Source of the DNA: Candidatus Woesearchaeota archaeon
Lineage (GTDB): Archaea; Nanobdellota; Nanobdellia; SCGC-AAA011-G17; JACPNG01
DNA length: 41,921 nucleotides
Reading direction: 5' to 3'
Assembly: GCA_018303365.1 (NCBI GenBank)
Contig: JAGVYI010000009.1
Coordinates: 1 to 41,921, forward strand
Made by a program: the position numbers and the translations under genes. Below are positions 5,229-12,601 of this stretch, one piece after another. The notes under the pieces are model-generated. The model made no database searches, had not been told where the DNA came from, and saw only the letters and a program-made list of their open reading frames with translations. The first letter of the stretch is position 1, and the number at the start of each line of letters is the position of its first letter.

Positions 5229-6491
5229 TTACTTCTTCTTCAAAAAAGAGCCAAGAGACTCTAAAGACAAAAGCCGCTCCTTGCCGCTTTGCATATCCCG
5301 AAGTTTATACTTCTTTGAAGAAATCTCTTTCTCACCAACAAAAACAACATAAGGAATATTCATTTTATGGGCATAATCTAAATTCTTGCTCACTCCCCGG
5401 CCAATTAAATCAATTGAAGTGGAAATGCCGCAATCTCTAAGCTTTTGTGCAATAAAAAAGGATTTCTTTTGTGTGTGAATCGGAACAATATAGACAAGAG
5501 GAAGATTTAATTGCGTTTTCTGCTTTTTAGAAAGCACAGTAATAATTGGCTCAACACCAAAGGAAATCCCCACAGCAGAAACAGCGCCTTTTCCAGCATA
5601 AAGACCAATCATATTATCATAACGGCCGCCACCACAAACCGAAGAAGTCATCTCACCCTTGGTCAGAAACCCCTCAAAAACAGTACCCGTATAATACGCA
5701 AGCCCACGTGCTAAAGATAGGTTCAGCTTGACTTTTCTGCGCACAGAAGAATCAAGATAAGAAAAAAGCTCTTCAAGCTCCTTTACACCCTCCTGATTAA
5801 TATTCATCTTCTTAAGCTGAGGCAGTGTTGCAGTAGAGAAAAGAGATAAAATCTCATCAGCGGTTGAACCTGAAATCCCAATAGAGGATAATTCACCGCG
5901 GAATTCCTTTGGTGAGAGCTTCTTCAGCTTGTCAATTATGATAATCGCTTCTTCTTTTTTTGCAATACCAAAAGAATCAAGAAGAGCGTTCATAAGCTTG
6001 CGGTTATTAACCTCAATTCTGGCAGAAAGCCCCAAGCTTGAAAATACATCAATGGCAAGGCAGATAAGCTCGGCCTCACAAAGCATAGAGGAAGAACCGA
6101 CAGTATCGCAGTCACACTGGTAAAACTCACGAACCCTTCCAAGCCTTATAGGACCATCCCGGTAAACTCGTCCTATCTGGGAGCGTTTAAACGGAAACTT
6201 AAGTTCAGGGTGCATAGCAACATAGCGCGAAAGAGGAACTGTAAGATCAAAACGAAGCCCAAGCTGTCGCCCTCCCCGGTCTTTGAACTTGAAAATCTCT
6301 TTCATGACATCAGAGCCCTCTCCTGCAGCAAATTTTGCAGAAAGAATATCATATCTTTCAACCTGGGGGGTATCAAGAGGCAAGAAGCCGTAGCAGACAA
6401 AGTGCTTTTGTAGAAGCTGGAAAATAGAATCCCTGAAAAAAGTCTCCTGAACTGAAAAATCTCGCATACCACGCGGGGTCAATATATCCAT
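5229..6491 (-). CDS. hisS: Histidyl-tRNA synthetase
   Basis: 420 residues from ATG at 6491 (MDILTPRGMRDF); the longer frame from 6539 adds 16 residues unlike the family. Class II signatures are present: motif 1 around the LDTPQVERYDIL strand, motif 2 FDLTVPLSRYVA followed by RIGRVYRDGPIRLGRVREFYQ, the His-specific RGLAYYTGTVFE segment, and motif 3 VCGGGRYDNMIGLY. The C-terminal 90 residues form the anticodon-binding domain (VYIVPIHTQ, SIDLIGRGVSKNLDYA). It charges tRNA-His, whose gene lies nearby at 7796-7870. A TATA-like CTTAATAAAC is about 25 bases before the chosen start, giving a leaderless mRNA. Confidence 0.95.
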   Translation of the reverse strand: MDILTPRGMRDFSVQETFFRDSIFQLLQKHFVCYGFLPLDTPQVERYDILSAKFAAGEGSDVMKEIFKFKDRGGRQLGLRFDLTVPLSRYVAMHPELKFPFKRSQIGRVYRDGPIRLGRVREFYQCDCDTVGSSSMLCEAELICLAIDVFSSLGLSARIEVNNRKLMNALLDSFGIAKKEEAIIIIDKLKKLSPKEFRGELSSIGISGSTADEILSLFSTATLPQLKKMNINQEGVKELEELFSYLDSSVRRKVKLNLSLARGLAYYTGTVFEGFLTKGEMTSSVCGGGRYDNMIGLYAGKGAVSAVGISFGVEPIITVLSKKQKTQLNLPLVYIVPIHTQKKSFFIAQKLRDCGISTSIDLIGRGVSKNLDYAHKMNIPYVVFVGEKEISSKKYKLRDMQSGKERLLSLESLGSFLKKK

Positions 6492-6563
6492 AAGAAGAAA
6501 AGAACACAAATGGTTTATTAAGGTTGTGACAGTAAACAAAAATATCCCTATCTGTTAGACAAC

Positions 6564-7763
6564 CTAAACATGGTGCCTGTGGTATGATTGAAAAAGAATA
6601 AATCCAAAAGAAACAGATAAAAGCGCAAGAGAAGAAAAAGCCAGAAAGAGAAAAGCGCTCGGGTAACTGCCTTGTGTTATTATATAACCCAGAATAAAAC
6701 CGAAAACAGCAGCTACAATGCTGGAAAGCAGGGACTCTATTGAGAGGATTGTAGCTTTGAAATTACTCCTCTCAATTATGTCAAGAAGATAATGATTCTT
6801 AGTTTCCTTAAAACTCCAGTTAAAAGCTGAGGCAAAAATAAGAAGTGGTACAATAACAAAAGGGATTGGAAAAAGACCCAAACCAAATAAGATAGCTAAA
6901 GAAAAAAGAAGTTTAAGACCTAAAAACTGATGAAAAGAAAGATATGTTTTTACCTTGTCGTTAATAAGGAGCAAAAGGGAAACAAGAACCCTAGAAGTGG
7001 CCCAAAAAATACCATAATATATTATTGGAACGCCTAAAAAAGCCTGGTAAACATCTTTATATCCTGAAACAGAAAGAATAAGACCCATCACAAGAGATAA
7101 AAAAACCGCGTACTTGAAAAATCCAAAACGGTAACATTCCCTTACAACAGCCCAGAAGTTATGCACACCAATCTCTTTTATTTCTTCTTTTGTTCTTTCT
7201 GGAACAACCAAGAAAATAGCAGAAACAAGACCAAGGATATCTAAAAGAGCAACAACAGCAAACGGTACTCTAAAACTAATGCTTACAAGAAAAGGTATAA
7301 GGACAATAAGGGCAATAGGGATAGCAAAACCAATTGAGCTAACCCTCCCCATAACCTTTGAATATTCCTTCTCACGACCTAGTCCCCTGAGGGTCTCGTG
7401 CATAAAAGCTGTACCAGTGCCACTATGAAAAGAGATAGCAAAGTTCAGAAAAACAGCACCGACAACAAAATAAGATACACTGGTTCCAAAAAGGTATAAA
7501 AGAGTTGATATAAGCAGGGATATTTTAGAAAAGACAAGTGCTTGTTTATGTCCTATCTTATCAGCAATGTACCCGCTTGGAATCTCAAAAAAGAATCCGG
7601 CAAGATACCCTGCTAGAAGGGTAAGCCCGATACTTTTAGGAGTAGCGCCTGGAAGGGTCAAAAGATAAACCCCAAAAATAGACATAAACGGCCGTTTATG
7701 GGTAATAAGGAAAACAGTATATTTCCAGATGTTAGAAGCAAGATTTGTAGGCTGATTAGTCAC
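6564..7763 (-). CDS. Major facilitator superfamily transporter
   Basis: About 399 residues with some 11-12 hydrophobic segments. The loop after the second helix carries the MFS motif A as GYIADKIGHKQA. A central cytoplasmic loop (VPERTKEEIKEIGVHNF) separates two six-helix halves. The substrate cannot be told from sequence. GTG at 7763 is preceded by GGAGGG at a normal distance of 9 bases; a TTG at 7769 is possible but too close to the SD site. The start lies only about 30 bases past the 3' end of tRNA-His, so the transporter may share the tRNA promoter and be released by tRNA processing. It ends about 70 bases before the hisS promoter. Confidence 0.9.
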   Translation of the reverse strand: MTNQPTNLASNIWKYTVFLITHKRPFMSIFGVYLLTLPGATPKSIGLTLLAGYLAGFFFEIPSGYIADKIGHKQALVFSKISLLISTLLYLFGTSVSYFVVGAVFLNFAISFHSGTGTAFMHETLRGLGREKEYSKVMGRVSSIGFAIPIALIVLIPFLVSISFRVPFAVVALLDILGLVSAIFLVVPERTKEEIKEIGVHNFWAVVRECYRFGFFKYAVFLSLVMGLILSVSGYKDVYQAFLGVPIIYYGIFWATSRVLVSLLLLINDKVKTYLSFHQFLGLKLLFSLAILFGLGLFPIPFVIVPLLIFASAFNWSFKETKNHYLLDIIERSNFKATILSIESLLSSIVAAVFGFILGYIITQGSYPSAFLFLAFSSLALLSVSFGFILFQSYHRHHV

Positions 7764-7795
7764 ACTCAATTGCCCTCCAAAAGAGGAGTATAATA

Positions 7796-7870
7796 TGGGG
7801 TGGTATAGGGGAATCGAACCCCTGTCTCGGGATCCACAGTCCCGCGTTCTACCACTGAACTAATACCACC
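7796..7870 (-). tRNA. tRNA-His (GTG), G-1 and CCA encoded
   Basis: The minus strand folds into a full cloverleaf: acceptor GTGGTAT/ATACCAC, D-arm GTTC/GAAC, anticodon stem CGGGA/TCCCG with loop CTGTGGA (anticodon GTG), and T-arm AGGGG/CCCCT with TTCGATT. The His-specific extra G-1 is encoded at 7870 opposite discriminator C73 (7799). The genome also supplies CCA (7798-7796), whereas tRNA-Ala and tRNA-Pro in this window lack it. There is no intron. TATA CTTATAAATT lies about 28 bases upstream. Confidence 0.95.
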
Positions 7871-7941: not shown

Positions 7942-8478
7942 CTAAGACTTAAGAACAGAAGACATAAGTCCCCTGCTGTCAGAAACAGCAAAAACAGGAG
8001 CATTAAGGACAGCACGGGCAGAAGATAAAGAGCACCCCTTGCCAAAAAGAACAGTGCCAAGAACAGAAAGACCATTCTTGCGACAGGAAGAAATAATCCT
8101 GGACGCCTCGCGCAAAGAAGAGGCATGACCATCACAGAAAATAATAAATTCATCAACTACTTTAGGAAGAGAGGAAAAAGAATTGGCATCTTCGCGGCTC
8201 ACATCAACAAATACAAGGTCATAGTGGCTATGCACATGGGAAAGAAAGCCGGAAAAGTCAGAAAAAACAACAGAGGAAGGAACAACGCTAAGACCAGTGT
8301 CGTGAGCATAGTGAGAACCAGGATAAAGTGATAATTCAAGAAGTGGAGAAGTAAAATTAGCATCAACAACAAGAACAGTCTTTCCTGCGCCGAAAAATAA
8401 AGACCCAAACCCCAAGGAAAAAAGAGAAGAGACAGACTCACCTTTTTTTGCACATAGAACACCAATATAGCGGGTCAT
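7942..8478 (-). CDS. ParA/MinD-like protein with degenerate Walker A
   Basis: 178 residues. The start MTRYIGVLCAKKGESVSSLF aligns in pattern with the beta-1/P-loop of ParA/MinD ATPases (KGGVGKTT), but the GK(S/T) core is absent. The next strand, KTVLVVDANFTSP, matches the VLLIDxDxxxP strand, and YDLVFVDVSRED matches the Walker B strand YDxIIIDxP. Later strands (DEFIIFCDGHASSLREA, GLSVLGTVLF) follow the deviant-Walker fold. ATP binding is therefore probably lost, leaving a scaffold or partner-binding role. It is the last gene of an operon: it starts 6 bases after the gene at 8485-8925. An orphan of this shape suggests a structural partner for the two helical proteins upstream. Confidence 0.7.
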   Translation of the reverse strand: MTRYIGVLCAKKGESVSSLFSLGFGSLFFGAGKTVLVVDANFTSPLLELSLYPGSHYAHDTGLSVVPSSVVFSDFSGFLSHVHSHYDLVFVDVSREDANSFSSLPKVVDEFIIFCDGHASSLREASRIISSCRKNGLSVLGTVLFGKGCSLSSARAVLNAPVFAVSDSRGLMSSVLKS

Positions 8479-8484
8479 AGGACA

Positions 8485-8925
8485 TCAACGGACGTAGTTA
8501 TATGCAAAGCGAACAAAGTCCTTTGTTTTCATGTAATAAAGGTGAAGTAAATCAACAGTCACCTTATAATCTCCAACAACCAAAGCAACGTTTTTATGAT
8601 ACTCATCTTGTGTCTTAAAAGGAGAACGATGAATTTTCTTAAGAAGGTGGTAAAAAGAAATATAGTCTAAGATAGCCCTTTCGCTTTTAAGCACAGAAGG
8701 AAGCATTTCAACAACCATCATTGGGTTGCTTGGAATATGCTTGACCCTACCATGTTCACGAGCAGAATGCATAATATCAGATGCAGCATACTCAATAGCT
8801 GCAATAAGGCGCTGTATGGTGTTACGAATAACATCTCCAGTTCTGGTATATTTTAAACTCACATGAAGAAGATGGTCAGCACGTTGTATTTCTAGCCTTG
8901 CACCCTCCTCATATTCATCAAGCAT
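8485..8925 (-). CDS. Conserved helical protein B (paralogue of its upstream neighbour)
   Basis: 146 residues, almost entirely predicted alpha-helical, with no signal peptide or membrane segment. The N-terminal RADHLLHVSLKYTRT...VIRNTIQRLIAAIEYA resembles TADHLAYVTYPALRET...LLSIAENLYLSMVKA in the upstream gene product, so the two are probably diverged paralogues. I have an impression of similar ADHL-x-(Y/H)V-(S/T) proteins in DPANN archaea, without known function. A HEPN-like four-helix fold is conceivable but a clear HEPN catalytic motif is not seen. Its ATG overlaps the upstream gene by 8 bases, indicating translational coupling. Confidence 0.65.
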   Translation of the reverse strand: MLDEYEEGARLEIQRADHLLHVSLKYTRTGDVIRNTIQRLIAAIEYAASDIMHSAREHGRVKHIPSNPMMVVEMLPSVLKSERAILDYISFYHLLKKIHRSPFKTQDEYHKNVALVVGDYKVTVDLLHLYYMKTKDFVRFAYNYVR

Positions 8926-9391
8926 TATTATCCACCACCTTTGTAATTTTTATTAGGAGAGGTCTTGCCCTTGTAAGGTAAGAGCGCATCTTCTCAATGC
9001 TCAAAGTTTGCATTTGATAGTTTGCATCACAAATAACAAGACGGTCACGCCTAGTAAACTCAACAGGACTCTCTTTGTGCTGGGTAAGAACACCGCGAAG
9101 GTCGTCTAGAAGCACAACAAAATCCCGGTCAATACTATAACGCGGGGCACACTTGTTTTTAAAGACTTCAAAACGGGAATCAAAGTTATCCGGAAGTGGA
9201 CGAATGCGCCTATACATTCTGTCGTATTGGAGTACACTCTCCATTGCCTTGACCATAGACAAATATAAGTTTTCTGCAATAGATAGCAAAAGCTTTGTCT
9301 CGCGAAGTGCAGGGTAAGTCACATAAGCAAGATGGTCCGCAGTGGTGTAAAACTTTTGAATCTCAGAGGATAGTTGTTTTAGTGGGGGCAT
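8918..9391 (-). CDS. Conserved helical protein A, first gene of ParA-like operon
   Basis: 157 residues, helical throughout, soluble. It shares the ADHL-x-YV-T motif and following helix with the downstream gene product (8485-8925). The second half is basic (RRIRPLPDNFDSRFEVFKNKC, TRRDRLVICDANYQMQ). A TATA-like CTTTATTAATT about 27 bases before the ATG at 9391 gives a leaderless mRNA and makes this the promoter-proximal gene of a three-gene operon ending with the P-loop-less ParA-like gene. Function unknown; the operon suggests all three act together. Confidence 0.65.
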   Translation of the reverse strand: MPPLKQLSSEIQKFYTTADHLAYVTYPALRETKLLLSIAENLYLSMVKAMESVLQYDRMYRRIRPLPDNFDSRFEVFKNKCAPRYSIDRDFVVLLDDLRGVLTQHKESPVEFTRRDRLVICDANYQMQTLSIEKMRSYLTRARPLLIKITKVVDNNA

Positions 9392-9425: not shown

Positions 9426-9764
9426 TTATTGTTGCAACCGCAAAATGGCAGCAGCAATATCACCTTGCTCTGCTTCAAGAGCTTCACGTGCTTCTTCAAG
9501 AGTACAATTTGTTTGCTCAGCAACAGTACTAATATCTTCATCTGAAAAAAGAGAAATTGGTCTCTCATGAATATCACCAACAACCTGAATGCTTTCCTGA
9601 CCCATCATATTAACACGGGAAACTTGTGGATTGGAAATAACAAGCTCTTTGTCCCTTGTACGAATAACAACCTCAACAGCATCAATTGGCTCTTCTTTAA
9701 TGCCAAACCTTTTCATAGCCTGCTTCATTGCTCTGGGATCCATGCCAGGAAACAAGAAAATCAC
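9426..9764 (-). CDS. nac: Nascent polypeptide-associated complex protein (NAC)
   Basis: About 112 residues. The N-terminus FPGMDPRAMKQAMKRFGI is the archaeal NAC start; the NAC domain follows (VVIRTRDKELVISNPQVSRVNMMGQESIQVVGD), and the C-terminus is a UBA domain (DISTVAEQTNCTLEEAREALEAEQGDIAAAILRL). Archaeal NAC homodimers bind nascent chains at the ribosome exit tunnel. The start is GTG at 9764, overlapping the TGA stop of secG as GTGA; no upstream ATG exists in frame. It is co-transcribed with secG, so a chaperone and a translocon subunit are made from one mRNA. Confidence 0.93.
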   Translation of the reverse strand: MIFLFPGMDPRAMKQAMKRFGIKEEPIDAVEVVIRTRDKELVISNPQVSRVNMMGQESIQVVGDIHERPISLFSDEDISTVAEQTNCTLEEAREALEAEQGDIAAAILRLQQ

Positions 9765-11674: not shown

Positions 11675-12469
11675 TTAAATGTAAGTCTGATCCCTTAGTT
11701 GTACACCCCTCAAAATAAAAGAGGTATTTTTTAGTAAATTTAACCAGCATTTAAAATAAAGTGTAAATAAGCTACCATGATATTTATGGGGTTCGTAACG
11801 GTACTTTTTACATAAATCATAGATAGCCATATCATAATCCAATAATAAAGGATTTATTTTTTTACCTGTTTTAAATTCAGTATAGGAAACGATATTGTCT
11901 ACAGAATACTTTATTGCTTTAAAACACCATATCCTAAAGCTATTTCTGTCATGACAAAGTACAGGCAGTACAAGAAGAATAAAATATGACAAAGGGAAAG
12001 TTAAAATCCTATCTACAAGAGATAAGTCGCCAATTTTAAGTTTGGATACTAAATCATGGCCATAAATTACCTCATAATTCCTTTTAAGATTGAATAAAAA
12101 CAACTCTTTACTAGTAAGAATTGAAGTAAATATTTTTAATCTCAGACTTTTTAAATTAAATCTGGCATCAAATTCATCTTCTGAGAAAATAATTAAATGC
12201 AATCCAGTAAGATCAGTTGCACCAAAGAAATTTCTTTGAATAAAATCGGATTTTGCTGAATGAGACTTACCGAAAACTTCAGATTCATGTCTCCTAAAGG
12301 TTTTCATAACTTTTGAAATAGATTTCTTTGATCTAGAAACAATAATTAAATCAATATCACCAAACCTAGGGTGTTCTAAACCAATTTTAGAACCAAATCT
12401 TACGATAGTTTTAATATCAGACCCGACCTCTTTCAATACCAAAGAAATTAATTTATCAAATTTTTCCAT
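11675..12469 (-). CDS. Nucleotidyltransferase-fold protein
   Basis: About 264 residues. The N-terminus has the pol-beta nucleotidyltransferase motif: RFGSKIGLEHPRFGDIDLIIV, that is GS, ten residues, then D-h-D. The rest is basic and helical with LHLIIFSEDEF and a hydrophobic stretch (ILTFPLSYFILLVLPVL) that may pack against a substrate. It could transfer a nucleotide to a small molecule or protein, or be an inactive antitoxin-like relative. The chosen ATG at 12469 is 26 bases from a TATA-like CTTTATTT; an in-frame ATG at 12490 is possible. It is the last gene of the minus-strand cluster 14546-11675 but probably has its own promoter. Confidence 0.65.
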   Translation of the reverse strand: MEKFDKLISLVLKEVGSDIKTIVRFGSKIGLEHPRFGDIDLIIVSRSKKSISKVMKTFRRHESEVFGKSHSAKSDFIQRNFFGATDLTGLHLIIFSEDEFDARFNLKSLRLKIFTSILTSKELFLFNLKRNYEVIYGHDLVSKLKIGDLSLVDRILTFPLSYFILLVLPVLCHDRNSFRIWCFKAIKYSVDNIVSYTEFKTGKKINPLLLDYDMAIYDLCKKYRYEPHKYHGSLFTLYFKCWLNLLKNTSFILRGVQLRDQTYI

Positions 12470-12601
12470 ATATGGTTTATTTCCTACCAAATAAAGATGA
12501 AAAAACGTGTTTAAAAGAATTTCTGTTAGCTATCCCTCAAACATATTGTCCATACAAAACAAATCAACTTACAAATAATCCTCAAATACAGTTTTTTATA
12601 T

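Follow-up and report, generated by a model that had tools for sequence, protein, structure and literature searches.

Background

One archaeal MinD, that of Haloferax (MinD2), has already been altered at the ATP site (PMC11588486). Its Walker A mutant, K16A, retains full motility function, and a Walker B mutant, D117A, does not. The Walker A mutant raises the question of what a MinD can do independently of nucleotide.

HEPN domains form a large superfamily, and a survey of it places the catalytic motif Rx4-6H at the end of helix 3 (PMC3710099). The superfamily also includes members that do not have this motif. The same survey describes one bacterial family, MAE_18760, in an operon with ParA/Soj, and gives no link to MinD or to NAC.

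A 2019 survey of archaeal dark matter (PMC6393860) lists two protein clusters that are relevant here. One, cls.004340 (NEQ484), is alpha-helical, occurs only in DPANN archaea, has a housekeeping context and is left unexplained. The other, cls.004259 (NEQ050), is specific to DPANN and consists of MNT fused to HEPN, again in a housekeeping context.

The locus described here was found in a window, by which we mean the whole analysed stretch of 41,921 nucleotides, from a Candidatus Woesearchaeota genome. An earlier note on this DNA had pointed to two overlapping genes for paralogous helical proteins, here called P1 and P2. These were said to be followed after 6 bases by a ParA-fold protein, P3, which has AKKGESVSSLF where KGGxGKT is expected. 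The translations and the comparisons below agree with this description. The conserved P1-P2 pair beside the genes for NAC and Sec61beta is the more general finding, compared to the missing P-loop. A search of open-access papers on HEPN in combination with DPANN, and on NAC in combination with MinD, gave no description of a Sec61beta-NAC-P1-P2-MinD cluster.

Gene layout

The open reading frames of P1, P2 and P3 were confirmed at the positions in Table 1, and all are on the minus strand. Read along that strand, the order is Sec61beta, NAC, P1, P2, P3 and tRNA-His. The Sec61beta and NAC genes overlap by 4 nt and P1 and P2 by 8 nt, and there are 6 nt between the stop of P2 and the start of P3. NAC is present as a single copy in the window's own genome. 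Phage records included nothing that matched the region.

Table 1. Positions of the features of the locus and of one further protein within the window.
Feature	Position	Strand	Basis or remark
Sec61-beta translocon subunit, 51 aa	9761..9916	-	PF03911 at 34.9 bits, above the cut-off of 27; first gene of the conserved cluster
Archaeal NAC, NAC domain and UBA-like C-terminus	9426..9764	-	TIGR00264 at 110.9 bits, above the cut-off of 80; PF01849 at E 5e-13
P1, predicted helical HEPN-like protein, 157 aa, unnamed family	8918..9391	-	AF2 model and fold matches
P2, paralogue of P1, 146 aa	8485..8925	-	near-universal in the class
P3, MinD orthologue without P-loop, 178 aa	7942..8478	-	MinD profile, alignment
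Remnant Walker A region of P3, AKKGESVSSLF, residues 10-20	8419..8451	-	sequence, translation, alignment
tRNA-His	7796-7869	-	downstream of P3
271 aa protein	11675..12490	-	

The tRNA-His gene lies near hisS downstream of P3, with an MFS transporter gene in between (window 5229-7869). In many relatives, hisS is also found near P2 or MinD.

The 271 aa protein of Table 1 has a nucleotidyltransferase-like stretch, VRFGSKIGLEHPRFGDIDLIIVS, and a C-terminal half that looks helical. It has no Pfam match at 0.01, and could belong to the MNT-HEPN fusion family cls.004259.

Distribution and gene order

P2 is present in 54 of 60 relatives, and in 250 of the 279 genomes of a phylum sample, all of these from one class. 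The P1 profile has matches in 94 of the 110 genomes that are at least 90% complete, in some of them through P2 only. Loci with a name come from Woesearchaeota, Nanoarchaeota and Candidatus Nanoarchaeia; some are simply called 'archaeon', and one is labelled Aenigmatarchaeota. P1 and P2 are near-universal genes of this DPANN class, without an assigned function.

Gene order was counted in 82 distinct loci that have enough upstream sequence, all from the window's taxonomic order. In 68 of these, P2 is directly preceded by P1. Within 2.5 kb, 72 have NAC and 58 have Sec61beta. MinD is found at most 2.3 kb downstream of P2 in 55 of 89 loci from the same order, a count that is possibly a few loci high, since the ORF profile took some ParA-like proteins that are not MinD (L118 and L138, for example) as MinD. 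In the class as a whole, P2 and MinD were both mapped in 55 genomes; in 46 of these MinD follows P2 on the same strand at 0-2.5 kb, and in 40 of the 46 at no more than 200 bp. Among relatives, P2 and MinD commonly overlap by 4 nt.

The order Sec61beta-NAC-P1-P2-MinD recurs in other families, and has been conserved throughout the class of DPANN archaea around Woesearchaeota. The earlier note had proposed that the gene order would be conserved in DPANN genomes, and it is, beyond the three genes, as Sec61beta and NAC precede them. The idea that the trio is a unit survives in that P1-P2-MinD order is conserved; as a unit it was incomplete, with Sec61beta and NAC left out.

MinD is the less constant member. 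Of the 110 genomes that are at least 90% complete, 23 have no detected MinD, and most of these 23 retain P2. Among 36 good relatives, MinD went undetected in 7. P1/P2 with no detected MinD is seen, for example, in G016, G024, G040, G041, G046 and G051, which all reach 90% completeness. Another 12 genomes of that completeness have P2 and no MinD at 1e-20 (G065, G075, G084, G090, G091, G098, G106, G107, G110, G111, G112 and G116), and these represent repeated loss of MinD in the class. Since P1 and P2 persist in good genomes without MinD, MinD is accessory and dispensable.

Shared operons do not have to mean shared work. P1-P2, NAC, Sec61beta and MinD might be housekeeping genes that sit together in a compact genome and do not cooperate, which we think rather unlikely. 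Such an arrangement would explain why P1 and P2 persist without MinD, and why MinD is near P2 in only some two thirds of the loci of the window's taxonomic order. The linkage of NAC and Sec61beta can likewise be ribosome or translocon housekeeping. However, the linkage outlasts the change of other neighbours across many families of the class, and there are start-stop overlaps between P1, P2 and MinD. In addition, local loss of P1 is associated with absence of MinD: 43 loci have both, 22 have P1 only, 3 have MinD only and 10 have neither (Fisher p 0.006). This association is suggestive, given that the loci are related and not independent.

The paralogous pair

The P1 and P2 of the window are only marginally similar in a pairwise BLAST (E 0.001, 20% identity). 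The earlier note had connected them through a shared helix pattern, ADHL-x-(Y/H)V-(S/T), and this pattern is indeed there, as ADHLAYVT in P1 and ADHLLHVS in P2. It had also suggested an HMM-HMM search of all three proteins. Profiles of the two families, with 46 members each, align with an hhalign probability of 98.2% and E 3e-14 over 148 columns. The P1 profile also returns P2 genes as second matches in many genomes. Judged by sequence, P1 and P2 are true paralogues, with a homology that extends beyond the shared motif.

Neither protein belongs to a named family in Pfam, NCBIfam or PHROGs. Pfam scans of the 46 P1 and 46 P2 members found no HEPN family by sequence, and a profile search of solved structures returned weak and scattered matches only. 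The best of these for P2, TAF1 (E 0.003 over 50 residues), conflicts with the fold search and was taken as chance.

AF2 gave confident models, with a mean pLDDT of 94.0 for P1 and 85.6 for P2. Both are helical, as the earlier note had said: a pair of long helices is followed by a shorter helical insert, then by a third long helix, by short strands and by a closing helix. This is a four-helix up-down fold with an insert between helices 2 and 3, and both AF2 and Foldseek find it in P1 and in P2. When searched against the PDB with Foldseek, the top matches of both are mostly HEPN proteins (HepT of MntA-HepT, HEPN-MNT, ST0689, 2q00). The best of these have probabilities of 0.97-1.00 and TM scores of 0.5-0.67, and the lowest E values are 0.066 for P1 and 0.15 for P2. 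Because no match is below E 0.06, the predicted fold is called HEPN-like, short of proven HEPN.

The P1 of the window carries the Rx4-6H motif, as R99-x5-H105. Within the P1 family the motif is not conserved, with K/R at position 99 in 60% and His at position 105 in 48%. It is absent from P2. This matters for the suggestion that P1 and P2 would be a pair of HEPN RNase toxins and P3 their antitoxin-like partner. The top fold matches are to HepT and HEPN-MNT toxins, which is what such a pair would predict. Yet the motif is not kept in either family, and the near-universal, syntenic distribution is unlike that of patchy toxin-antitoxin systems. The cluster also has no MNT partner; its conserved neighbours are NAC, Sec61beta and MinD. 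A toxin-antitoxin role was rejected on motif and distribution, and seems very improbable.

What P2 does conserve lies elsewhere. Over the 130 sequences, H18 and K25 are invariant, R15, Y26, T27, T29, D31, E108 and R110 are nearly so, and D17 and R39 are also conserved. These residues map to helices 1 and 2, to the loop between them and to the hairpin that comes after helix 3. In an up-down bundle, this loop and this hairpin should be at the same pole. At position 110, 97% of the 130 relatives carry Arg; the P2 of the window departs from them with His, and its branch is the second longest of 54. The earlier note had thought of a positioning, division or RNA-linked complex. Positioning or division would be conjecture, and any RNA link of P1/P2 would have as its sole basis the predicted HEPN-like fold, without the catalytic motif.

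A variant of P2 is found in three loci of one family (L059, L062 and L063). It is 209 aa long, of which about 60 residues form a C-terminal tail that is basic and rich in lysine. Tails of this type are often seen on proteins bound to ribosomes or RNA.

P3 and its P-loop

P3 reads MTRYIGVLCAKKGESVSSLF, and has AKKGESVSSLF at the position of the KGGxGKT of MinD. Aligned residue by residue, the KGGVGKTT of the family corresponds to KKGESVSS in P3. This means that the signature lysine and the middle glycine are kept, the P-loop lysine has become valine, and the first and last glycines are gone. P3 does not have the deviant Walker A motif KGGxGKT with its P-loop lysine, as found in ParA and MinD.

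The rest of the protein is still recognizable. P3 matches a profile of the adjacent MinDs with E 2.3e-44, over positions 1-209 of 256, which covers the Rossmann core; the profile has 22 rows, and P3 itself is one of them. In single-sequence searches, P3 matches the neighbouring MinDs of relatives, with E values down to 4.5e-8. Against TIGR01969 of NCBIfam it scores 13.7 bits, under the cut-off of 201.75. Retained are the N-terminus, the VDANFTSP strand, a Walker B-type Asp and, as far as profile position 209, the pattern of strands. By gene position and profile, P3 is the MinD orthologue.

P3 is also short, by about 80 residues. Part of the central region is missing, as are some 50 C-terminal residues. 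P3 ends before the C-terminal amphipathic membrane helix, where most relatives have an ending of the FFsrLFkk type.

The orthologues of P3 at the same gene position are ordinary MinDs of around 250-260 aa with KGGxGKT, and mostly with the C-terminal amphipathic stretch. The loss of the P-loop is therefore a change in this lineage and not a family trait; P-loop loss as the defining trait of a family is ruled out by the intact P-loops of the other MinDs. The earlier note had stated that its proposal would fail if homologues of the third protein had a normal P-loop and unrelated neighbours. Normal P-loops is what they turned out to have, and the neighbours are the same ones.

Among 69 distinct MinD-family proteins from these loci, 68 have the P-loop lysine. 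The exception is on a Woesearchaeota contig (L136:1901-2626), where a MinD beside P2 has KGGTGVT, a second loss of this lysine at the MinD gene position. In six more MinDs, otherwise normal, Ser or Ala replaces the last P-loop glycine: KGGVSKT in L021, L025 and L106, KGGVAKT in L051 and L058, and KGGAAKT in L054. These six variants may mean that constraint on the ATP site is weaker here than it usually is.

The window's genome is a draft of 22 contigs, and a damaged copy of an intact minD, through misassembly or a frameshift, would be one way to obtain a sequence like P3. The reading frame has no stops however, and the MinD profile follows one frame throughout. Long alternative ORFs in the region do not contain KGGxGKT. 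There are about 70 bases between P3 and tRNA-His, so no C-terminal part is hidden downstream. Such an error was rejected on the open frame and the single-frame match, and is hardly credible. In the genome of P3, which is 90.9% complete, nothing else matches the MinD profile.

Maintained gene or relic

P3 has changed a great deal. In protein trees its branch has length 2.18 against a median of 0.27, the longest of 37. The branches of P1, P2 and NAC from the window rank 10, 2 and 4, with an excess far smaller than that of P3. So the lineage is fast-evolving in general, and P3 far more. P3 has around 26% identity to the MinDs of the family, which share 66% among themselves, and 18.5% of its residues are serine, against a mean of 6.5%.

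Such numbers, together with the genomes and good relatives in which MinD went undetected, are what one would see if P3 were a decaying relic, caught at a late stage of the repeated loss of MinD, with its ATP site and membrane helix already lost and without a remaining role. We regard this as a real, if doubtful, possibility. Against it stand the start of P3 and its spacing to P2, which are retained, and several statistics of the sequence that exceed neutral expectation. The in-frame codon score of P3 is 0.43 bits per codon, compared to 0.45 for NAC, and its other forward frames score negative. When minD genes of relatives were mutated randomly and neutrally, none of 3000 remained free of stops at an identity of 50% or less, and 0.6% did at 60%. 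The hydropathy of P3 correlates with that of the family at 0.646, versus 0.44 ± 0.064 for neutral sequences of similar identity, where the maximum among 180 simulations was 0.647.

The open frame, the codon bias and a hydropathy beyond neutral therefore support that P3 was constrained during much of its divergence. This constraint is a past one, and does not imply constraint at present, nor that the constrained divergence all followed the loss of the P-loop. P3 is known from one genome, and among the 12 genomes of the family that were searched there was no second one from the genus.

Proposed explanation

The locus is probably a local form of an operon, Sec61beta-NAC-P1-P2-MinD, that is ancestral in DPANN. 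The paralogous and HEPN-like P1 and P2 most likely act as a pair. From their gene position, they would be the core of a module at the nascent-chain or Sec side of the cell. MinD would normally be its ATP-driven, membrane-binding partner, as its adjacency and the overlapping start and stop codons suggest. In the lineage of the window, the only MinD found has, by its sequence, lost its nucleotide site and its membrane anchor. It appears to have been kept as a protein during much of its divergence, as coding and fold statistics support, and most likely it survives as a partner that binds P1-P2 independently of nucleotide. As a whole, this ancestral operon with a P1-P2 core, a MinD partner and a nucleotide-independent P3 is given a barely better than even chance of being right.

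For MinD itself, the best reading is that of a frequent but dispensable partner, with P3 either a nucleotide-free partner or on its way out. The latter is also possible because several P1/P2 relatives have no MinD. A nucleotide-free partner has a precedent in the K16A mutant of Haloferax MinD2 (PMC11588486), and the MinD of L136, without its P-loop lysine, also counts in favour of one. The earlier note had taken loss of the ATP site with the fold kept as the sign of a scaffold. A scaffold role for P3 is possible and fits the signs of selection; the missing P-loop as such is not a property of the system.

A bolder version is that P1-P2 forms an undescribed, HEPN-derived heterodimer at the interface of ribosome and translocon in DPANN, with MinD positioning or switching it at the membrane. 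In the lineage of the window, this switch would then have turned into a constitutive pseudo-ATPase subunit. This is speculative, and we consider it unlikely.

Nearly all members of a class with tiny genomes have P1 and P2, so that these probably have a basic role, for which the operon offers NAC, Sec61beta and MinD as leads. A MinD that survives without its ATP site would be a natural test of functions that do not depend on nucleotide. If the role of P1-P2 is co-translational, MinD gains one outside of division, motility and chromosome positioning.

Comparison with known systems

P1 or P2 may be the cls.004340 (NEQ484) of the dark matter survey, whose description they would fit. The main text of that survey mentions neither MinD nor NAC (PMC6393860).

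Within the HEPN superfamily (HepT, PaREP1/8, ST0689, AbiV, Csx1), the models of P1 and P2 share the four long helices and the extra helix between helices 2 and 3. They also have a beta-hairpin after helix 3, as described for Csx1 (PMC3710099). They differ in that Rx4-6H is not conserved, and that the conserved residues lie instead in the first helix, the loop that follows it and the hairpin.

In the MinD2-HVO_0596 pair of Haloferax volcanii, a MinD likewise shares its operon with a conserved protein that has no known function. Its genomic setting is a different one, and the accessible text describes no linkage to NAC or Sec61beta (PMC11588486).

Compared to archaeal MinD (TIGR01969) among the SIMIBI ATPases, P3 is alike in its orthologous gene position and in the strands of the Rossmann core. 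It differs in the loss of the P-loop lysine and two P-loop glycines, and in the missing central part and C-terminal helix. Set beside the Haloferax mutants, P3 is without the Walker A Lys and keeps the Walker B-type Asp.
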